A stretch of 64,000 nucleotides of DNA, taken from the NCBI RefSeq assembly GCF_000007345.1, contig NC_003552.1, positions 1,674,001-1,738,000 on the forward strand, read 5' to 3'. The DNA is from Methanosarcina acetivorans C2A. GTDB taxonomy: Archaea; Halobacteriota; Methanosarcinia; Methanosarcinales; Methanosarcinaceae. A program made the translations under genes and the position numbers. Shown piece after piece: positions 7,890 through 21,573 of the stretch (the first letter of the stretch is position 1; each line of letters begins with the position of its first letter). A model generated the notes under the pieces. The model did not search any database. It was not told where the DNA came from and saw only the letters and a program-made list of their open reading frames with translations.

Positions 7890-7967
7890 GCTCCGGTAGT
7901 GTAGTCCGGCCAATCATTCCGGCCTTTCGAGCCGAAGACTCGGGTTCGAATCCCGGCCGGAGCACCA
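7890..7967 (+). tRNA. tRNA-Glu (anticodon UUC), copy 1
   Basis: The cloverleaf is clear. The acceptor stem is GCTCCGG/CCGGAGC, the anticodon loop CTTTCGA gives TTC, and the T arm is TCGGG-TTCGAAT-CCCGG. The CCA end is encoded (7965-7967). No intron is present. The bottom pair of the anticodon stem appears as a C-A mismatch in both copies. Identical in sequence to the gene at 8346. Confidence 0.97.
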
Positions 7968-8345: not shown

Positions 8346-8423
8346 GCTCCGGTAGTGTAGTCCGGCCAATCATTCCGGCCTTTCGAGCCGAAGACTCGGG
8401 TTCGAATCCCGGCCGGAGCACCA
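8346..8423 (+). tRNA. tRNA-Glu (anticodon UUC), copy 2
   Basis: This is an exact duplicate of the tRNA at 7890-7967, including the encoded CCA (8421-8423). It has its own upstream TATA-like element (near 8300) about 45 bases before the mature 5' end. Flanking sequences differ between the copies, so the duplication covers only the tRNA itself. Confidence 0.97.
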
Positions 8424-20039: not shown

Positions 20040-21573
20040 GTAACTATTCAGGGTATGGTTAACGGCGCTCCCTTGAGCACCGCTATAATACCCTCTAAAA
20101 CAGATAACCCGTTCTTTCTAATTGTAGAAATATAAGCTCTAATTCTGCAGAAAGCTTCCGCTCCTTGTATCGTCCTGAAAGTTCCTGATATTTTCTGCTG
20201 TAGTTTCATCATTCTGATATCTCTTTCTGCCTGATTATTCTCAAACGGAACTTTCAAATCAGTCAGGAATCTCAGGATCTTTTCTTTGTGTTCTATAAAC
20301 CTATCCAGTAGATTCCTTGCTTTTGTTTTTGGTTTTTTACCACGTTTTCCCTGTTTTTCAGGGTTTAGAGCCAGCGGATTTTCTTCAATTCCTTTCATGA
20401 CTGCAGCATCAAACCTTTCTTCCAATGCTTTAATTTGCTCAAAATCCAGTTCTTTGAGTTGCTCTTTGCATTCGTCAGTATACTTTTTCATCTCAGTGAG
20501 CAATTCATTCATTTCTTTAGCCCACTGCTGTTTATAGTTCTCTTCAATTCCCGTAAGTTCTCTCTGTAAATGAGCATTACACAGAGCATGATCACAGTCA
20601 TAAGTGTTGTAGGGTTTCCATCCATCATGAACTGCTACTCCCTTAAACTCAGGAAGAATTCCCATAGCATTTATTGCTTCTGATCCTCTTTTTGAGTGAG
20701 GAAAATAACAGGTGTATTTATCATTAGAAGCTACATGAAGCCAGTGTCTTTTTCCTTCGATCTTCATACCAGTTTCATCACAATGAATAACAGGAGAAGC
20801 CAGTAACCTTTCTCGAATTATGCTTTCAAATTTCTCTAAGTTCTGGAAACATTCTTTTTCTGCTCTAATTATCGTAGCAGGACAGATTTTTATTCCCATA
20901 ATATCCTCAAAAAACTCAGAAATTCTTTCATAGGGGATAAAATGGTGATTTTTACAGTAAACAGCTGAAGCTAGAATATTAGGGCCATACTGAACTGGAT
21001 ATTTCACAGATTCGGGAAAGGCAGCTTTATTTAATCTTCCACAATGAGGACAGGTCTTAATCTGACTTTTGTGTTCTGTAACAATAAGATTTACGGGAGG
21101 AATATCAAAGACCTGTCTTTTCTCATAAGCTTCAACTTCAACATTCTCAAGAGTGTGTCCACATTCTTTGCAGCAACTCAAAGAGTGTTCTATTTCCTAC
21201 TCAGGCTCATCAACCATTTCAAGAGTTGTTCCAGGATGACCATCTTGACCACCAGGTTTTTTGCCACTCTTTTTACGGAGACTCTTGGGATTGGGCTTCT
21301 CCTTTACAAAATAATCAGTAGAAGGAGGTCTACTACTGTTACGACTGTTTTGATTTAAACGAGAATCTAAGGCTATCAATCTTTCAGTGAGTTCTTTTAT
21401 TTGAGACTCAAGACTCACAATATAAGTAATAACCTCAGGGTTTGAAGCACACAAAACAAGAATCTCTTCACGGGTAGGCATGATAACGAAATGAAATAGG
21501 ATTCAATTTATATCCAATTTTTCCTCGAAACGAGGAAAAATTGTAGCCGTTAAAAGGCTACCTGAATTGTTAC
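20040..21573 (-). mobile_element. Complete IS66-family insertion sequence
   Basis: This 1534-base element is bounded by inverted repeats: left GTAACTATTCAGGGTA... and right (reverse complement) GTAACAATTCAGGTAG..., matching over about 26 bases including TTAACGGC. It is flanked by an exact 8-base target duplication CGAAAAAA. It encodes only the TnpC-type transposase on the minus strand, without the accessory tnpA/tnpB genes of many IS66 elements. Intact ends and duplication point to a fairly recent insertion. Confidence 0.92.
20048..21481 (-). CDS. IS66 transposase with in-frame UAG (possible pyrrolysine)
   Basis: One continuous minus-strand frame of about 477 codons encodes an IS66 DDE transposase, broken only by a TAG at 21197-21199. 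The N-terminal 94 residues hold the leucine-zipper/linker region and a basic QNSRNSSRPPSTD motif. After TAG come the zinc-binding CCKECGH...CPHCGRLNK region and the catalytic domain (HCDETGMKIEG, HDGWKPY, NNQAERDIRMMKL). Reading the UAG as pyrrolysine, known in Methanosarcina, restores the full protein. Otherwise a TTG at 21181 could start a shorter product, or the element may be dead. Confidence 0.85.

Follow-up and report, generated by a model that had tools for sequence, protein, structure and literature searches.

The insertion sequence and its transposase gene

Within a stretch of 64,000 nucleotides of the Methanosarcina acetivorans C2A genome (G000:C1:1674001-1738000, hereafter the window) lies an insertion sequence of the IS66 family whose transposase gene contains one in-frame UAG, very likely read as pyrrolysine judging from its conservation among relatives. 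The host genome (G000) has 5,751,492 bp in one contig. Genomes, loci and genera are coded G, L and g, respectively, g1 being Methanosarcina and g21 its sister genus.

As listed in Table 1, the element consists of a single transposase gene between two terminal repeats, with GTAACTATTCAGGG... at 20040 and the complement of GTAACAATTCAGG... at 21573 as its outermost bases. Its assignment to IS66 is based on PF03050 (240 bits) and NF033517, the NCBIfam IS66 transposase model (390 bits with a cut-off of 180), and both GTAA-type terminal repeats and an 8-bp target duplication are present. The genes tnpA and tnpB are excluded by size, as the 1,534-bp element only fits the 1,434-bp transposase frame. 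The TAG at 21199-21197 (codon 95) is the sole internal stop in this frame. A first, sequence-only reading of this DNA had described a frame of about 477 codons that is continuous except for one TAG, a pair of intact ends with an 8-base duplication, and a fresh copy. The reading frame bears out the first of these, matching ends and a duplication identical over 8/8 bp were found, and the perfect duplication supports a fresh insertion.

The window subtype is present as a single copy in G000, while a subtype with about 62% protein identity has three near-identical UAG copies, each with its own perfect duplication. An older relic of the window subtype (L002, G000:C1:4282057-4282882) is an 88% identical fragment covering query positions 707-1536, with a frameshift and stops. 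Two short sequences, L006 (G000:C1:3688129-3688181, 53 bases) and L007 (215703-215726, 24 bases), match the upstream end of the element and may represent solo ends or small non-autonomous derivatives.

The UAG had been placed between the N-terminal linker and the zinc-binding region, which agrees with the Pfam matches to DUF6444 (residues 22-86) and zf-IS66 (residues 103-148). An AlphaFold2 model built on 19 aligned relatives (mean predicted local distance difference test, pLDDT, 74; predicted template modelling score, pTM, 0.51) shows a long helix at residues 15-47, a low-confidence linker up to residue 90 and a strand from residue 95. A structure search gave weak fold matches only, the top one being the ISCth4 transposase with a template modelling (TM) score of about 0.25, which indicates no more than a DDE-type fold. 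No useful match was found when the transposase was searched by sequence against solved structures.

Table 1. Features of the IS66-family element, in window positions
Feature	Position	Strand	Remarks
IS66-family insertion sequence, single transposase gene, no tnpA/tnpB	20040..21573 (1,534 bp)	-	Ends, duplication, PF03050, NF033517
Target-site duplication, left copy CGAAAAAA	20032..20039	.	Perfect over 8 bp
Target-site duplication, right copy CGAAAAAA	21574..21581	.	Perfect over 8 bp
Terminal inverted repeat GTAACTATTCAGGGTATG	20040..20057	.	Past the transposase 3' end, overlapping the final codons and stop of the gene
Terminal inverted repeat, inward reading GTAACAATTCAGGTAGCC	21556..21573	.	5' of the transposase gene
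Perfect 13-nt inverted repeat	21515..21543	.	Lies between outer end and start codon of the transposase gene
Transposase gene, tnpC type	20048..21481	-	477 codons if UAG is read; terminator TGA
DUF6444, residues 22-86	21224..21418	-	Pfam; N-terminal region, inside the product of codons 1-94 if UAG terminates
In-frame UAG, codon 95	21197..21199	-	Kept in all full-length relatives of A and B but one, where UAG is four codons upstream
RF02512 PYLIS_5 match	21100..21199	-	113.8 bits; starts at the UAG (read here as the UAG and the next 99 bases)
zf-IS66 zinc-binding domain, residues 103-148	21038..21175	-	Pfam; needs read-through
DDE_Tnp_IS66 catalytic domain, residues 163-443	20153..20995	-	Pfam; needs read-through

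Conservation of the UAG among relatives

Relatives were gathered by DNA searches over 60 relatives and protein searches over 112 family genomes, and grouped by protein identity into subfamilies A (80-100%), B (about 62%) and C (about 50%). Every full-length copy in Methanosarcina and its sister genus has one in-frame UAG, across 15 genomes and down to about 50% protein identity, located at the equivalent of codon 95 or at most 17 codons away. The stop at this site in intact copies is always UAG and never UAA or UGA; full-length copies terminate in TGA or TAA and in no case in TAG. Copies with additional stops, e.g. L016, L017 and L122, are visibly decaying. In the comparison with relatives proposed by the sequence-only reading, the UAG was thus found to be kept, and not private to the window copy with sense codons in its relatives.

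Most UAG copies whose two ends were recovered have perfect 8-bp duplications, and near-identical UAG copies are found at different sites in G000, G008, G014, G025 and G029. The UAG elements have evidently moved. All four full-length IS66 copies in G000 contain the UAG, and no UAG-free full-length IS66 helper was found among them. Read-through is the simplest account. None of the 63 matches to the PF01609 transposase in G000 has an in-frame UAG inside the match, so the UAG is not a general feature of the transposons in this genome.

Some further loci were noted. Draft genome G016, a sequence match to Methanosarcina spelaei, has many copies, most of which reach contig edges so that the UAG cannot be scored. 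L173 (2480-3487), on a contig binned as 'Bacilli bacterium' and probably mis-binned, is a truncated Methanosarcina-type copy with adjacent UAGs at codons 94 and 95. A different, distantly IS66-like transposase in G000 (L239, G000:C1:4427300-4429900) is broken and has one UAG; an intact relative of it (L183, 261-1925) adjoins a UAG-free sister copy of subfamily C.

Movement of the UAG

Three UAG positions are known, at codons 95, 91 and 112. Copy L115 in G025, which is of the B type and has perfect ends and a perfect duplication, has TAT (Tyr) at codon 95 and UAG at codon 91. Subfamily C (L102 in G019, L106 in G066 and more copies in G019) has Glu at position 95 and UAG at 112; L102 and L106 come from genomes of two genera and both have perfect duplications. 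The UAG-free sister of this subfamily (L183) has Phe at 112. In the protein tree, A+B and C are each well supported, and the UAG-position labels (four states) need three changes. The other archaeal and bacterial relatives examined have no UAG, and their codon 95 is mostly E, H, Q, D or R. Since the UAG occupies three positions and the residues at 95 vary, what is conserved is probably not a side chain at a fixed position, and the identity of the residue there seems to be of little importance. In G066, a match to a group II intron domain (RF02012, 60.4 bits) lies directly upstream of the subfamily C element, at L106 3191-3283 (-).

Selection at the codon and around it

Across 503 pairwise comparisons of A and B copies, the median ratio of nonsynonymous to synonymous substitution rates (dN/dS) is 0.28 before the UAG and 0.18 after it, with median dS values of 0.64 and 0.85, respectively. 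Purifying selection acts on both sides of the UAG, and both evolve as one coding sequence. In the A+B tree, codon 95 turned to sense once, in L115. A neutral expectation was derived from fourfold sites in invariant codons (mean 3.04 changes, 53 sites). According to this estimate, about 7.6 neutral changes to sense are expected at a free TAG, compared to one observed (Poisson P 0.004). When real fourfold sites are resampled, retention of codon 95 has a P of 0.028. In the only loss of UAG95, another UAG has appeared four codons from it, which strengthens the case for selection, although this is a single event. Compared to L001, copies L014 and L041 have A-like bodies with B-like N-termini, being mosaic upstream of the UAG, which suggests that element subtypes recombine in that region.

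Hosts with and without pyrrolysine genes

G000 has pylS and pylB side by side at about 185,000-187,000. Pyl genes are likewise present in the hosts of the UAG-bearing full-length copies in both genera. All searched Methanosarcina genomes have pylS except G010, G011, G012 and G017, and the same four gave no match to pylB among the 20 Methanosarcina genomes searched. For mtmB, no match was found in G011, G012 and G017, nor in the pylS-positive G018, and G010 has a fragment. G010 was excluded from the pyl-negative argument (75% complete, mtmB fragment), as was G012, in which no copy was found; the G010 relic has TAT at the site. The eight relic copies examined in G011 and G017 have TGG (5) or TGA (3) at the TAG position. 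They group together in the DNA tree as a single clade with support 100, nested within the UAG-bearing A group. This is most simply read as a UAG element that turned to UGG (Trp), spread and then decayed, the ancestral codon being a reconstruction. The occurrence of only dead copies in pyl-negative genomes was considered as a statistic and dropped, since relic-only copies are also present in several pylS-positive genomes.

RNA structure and internal restart

Three tests gave no support for a functional RNA structure downstream of the UAG. The fold of 106 nt from just before the window UAG is no better than shuffled sequence (z 0.38), the covariation term downstream of the UAG is only -0.66 with two doubly changed pairs in 14 sequences, and third-position changes 3' of the UAG show no reduction. 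Internal restart is unlikely, as no conserved start codon is found in the A and B copies checked. A TTG at codon 101 is present in the A copies and missing from the B copies. A copies have their first ATG at codon 195 and B copies mostly at codon 174 or 223, i.e. past the zinc-binding domain and inside the catalytic domain.

Elsewhere in the window

Two tRNA matches of 55.3 bits each lie about 380 bases apart at 7890-7964 and 8346-8420 (+). They are possibly a duplicated tRNA gene.

Relation to known systems

A UAG in this transposase and its reading as pyrrolysine are already described in the literature and Rfam, so that the core of the finding is not new. The window element has a full-length match (covariance model 1-100, 113.8 bits, gathering threshold 60) to RF02512, PYLIS_5, 'Pyrrolysine insertion sequence transposase 1'. 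A B copy from the subfamily at about 62% (L003) gives a full-length match of 136.5 bits to RF02513, PYLIS_6, 'transposase 2'. L115 matches PYLIS_6 starting at its Tyr95 codon, with the actual UAG 12 bases upstream, and subfamily C (UAG112) has no PYLIS match. The same cluster names are used in PMC3639795, where transposase 1 is reported from two organisms (16 members) and transposase 2 from one (3 members), whereas the UAG is found here in 15 genomes of two genera. The cluster dimensions published there (upstream 293, downstream 1150) agree with the window gene.

According to a 2010 review (PMC2933860), M. acetivorans and M. mazei have a family of transposases from a Bacillus insertion element in which an amber codon is conserved, and M. 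burtonii has relatives that lack it. We infer that this family is the present IS66 subgroup (ISBst12 type). The hosts are the same, the amber codon is conserved, and an amber-free relative occurs in M. burtonii as in g3 here. The review names no IS family and reports neither relocation of the UAG nor a sense codon in pyl-negative hosts. These two observations are the additions of the present work; neither was found in the literature searched, which covered few subscription journals. According to the same review, a reporter with an introduced amber codon gave 20-30% full-length product in M. acetivorans with pyrrolysine, the product being mostly terminated. Another protein of this organism with an in-frame UAG readable as pyrrolysine outside the methylamine methyltransferases is Thg1 (PMC2933860). 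Unlike the latter, the UAG of the transposase is kept over two genera and re-created at nearby sites.

The element shares DDE_Tnp_IS66, zf-IS66, GTAA ends and the 8-bp duplication with single-gene IS66 elements, but none of the relatives examined in bacteria and other archaea has its in-frame UAG. Bacterial insertion sequences of the IS1, IS3 and IS911 types obtain two products from one gene by programmed frameshifting, a short N-terminal one and a longer catalytic one. The logic is shared, with recoding setting the ratio of short to long product. In the window element, however, the recoding would be the reading of a stop by a special tRNA.

Interpretation

The full-length transposase is probably made by inserting pyrrolysine at UAG95, with the codon kept mainly as a brake on dose that is tied to the pyrrolysine supply. 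The host would decode UAG95 in a minority of translation, by analogy with the reporter, giving a full-length active transposase. By the same analogy, most translation would end at the UAG and yield a 94-residue N-terminal piece without the zinc-binding and catalytic domains. Low read-through would then limit the amount of full transposase, as frameshifting does in some bacterial insertion sequences, and the N-terminal piece may, hypothetically, inhibit transposition. A dependence of transposition on methylamine growth is likewise hypothetical. That the UAG is a selected gate on the transposase has a chance that is close to even, if slightly below it. A more specific version, in which the UAG is a selected and movable control codon, with pyrrolysine gating the dose and the codon being re-created nearby if lost and replaced by sense in hosts without pyl genes, is possible, though we lean somewhat against it. 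It would make the element a naturally occurring example of mobile DNA coupled to an expanded genetic code.

Several observations weigh against a selected gate. The neutral test is only moderate, being based on parsimony, which undercounts changes, and ignoring recombination, which is likely. Moreover, 18% of codons 91-112 show at most one change, and codon 95 is no more conserved than many of its neighbours. The pyl-negative genomes are incomplete (G011 92%, G017 73%), all eight relics are heavily broken, and relic-only copies are also present in several pylS-positive genomes. The inhibition by the N-terminal piece is drawn from pure analogy. Finally, genomes of g3 and g5 have pylS, and yet many intact full-length copies there lack any UAG. 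Pyrrolysine decoding does not force a UAG, and the gate is not required in the family. Of the earlier proposal, the reading of UAG as pyrrolysine holds up, with relatives keeping the codon and the published view in agreement. Its tie of transposition to amber decoding fits the relocation and the sense codon in relics, but g3 and g5 show that this tie is not obligatory.

Among the alternatives, neutral tolerance of a chance UAG in a flexible linker, where a harmless pyrrolysine is inserted and the codon merely persists, is unlikely but far from negligible. The site lies at the end of the low-confidence linker in the model, relatives vary at it (E, H, Q, D, R), and PMC3639795 puts clusters 19 and 23 (TetR and transposase 2 per its table, the latter in M. 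acetivorans) down to neutral evolution. The single change to sense, compared to an expected number of about 7.6, speaks against mere tolerance, as do the new UAG four codons upstream in the lone loss and the third UAG at 112, which arose independently. A need for the pyrrolysine side chain itself, for folding or chemistry of the transposase, would agree with the strong retention of the codon in subfamilies A and B. It is improbable given Tyr in L115, Glu in C, E/H/Q/D in outside relatives, and Trp (TGG) or TGA in the pyl-negative relics.

A split gene, with the UAG ending a short protein and a second protein with the zinc-binding and catalytic domains starting internally, is a little less probable still. 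In the A copies checked, the TTG at codon 101 could serve as such a start, but the B copies checked lack it, the first ATGs are too far downstream, and codons 96-100 are still in a conserved frame. Ordinary decay, in which the copy is dead and has recently acquired a nonsense mutation, can be set aside with near certainty. Decayed copies do occur commonly in the genus, but UAG, and never UAA or UGA, is shared by essentially all intact copies of the different genera, and multi-copy, near-identical elements with fresh duplications contradict the view that all copies are dead.

For the pyrrolysine code, it is a standing question whether UAG outside the methylamine methyltransferases is useful or merely tolerated. 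This element family offers natural replicates, with UAG at three positions, UAG-free sisters and sense-codon relics in pyl-negative hosts, and the gate can be tested in an archaeon that is open to genetic manipulation and viable when pylT is deleted. Should the gate exist, an optional amino acid would serve mobile DNA both to switch expression and to restrict the range of its hosts.
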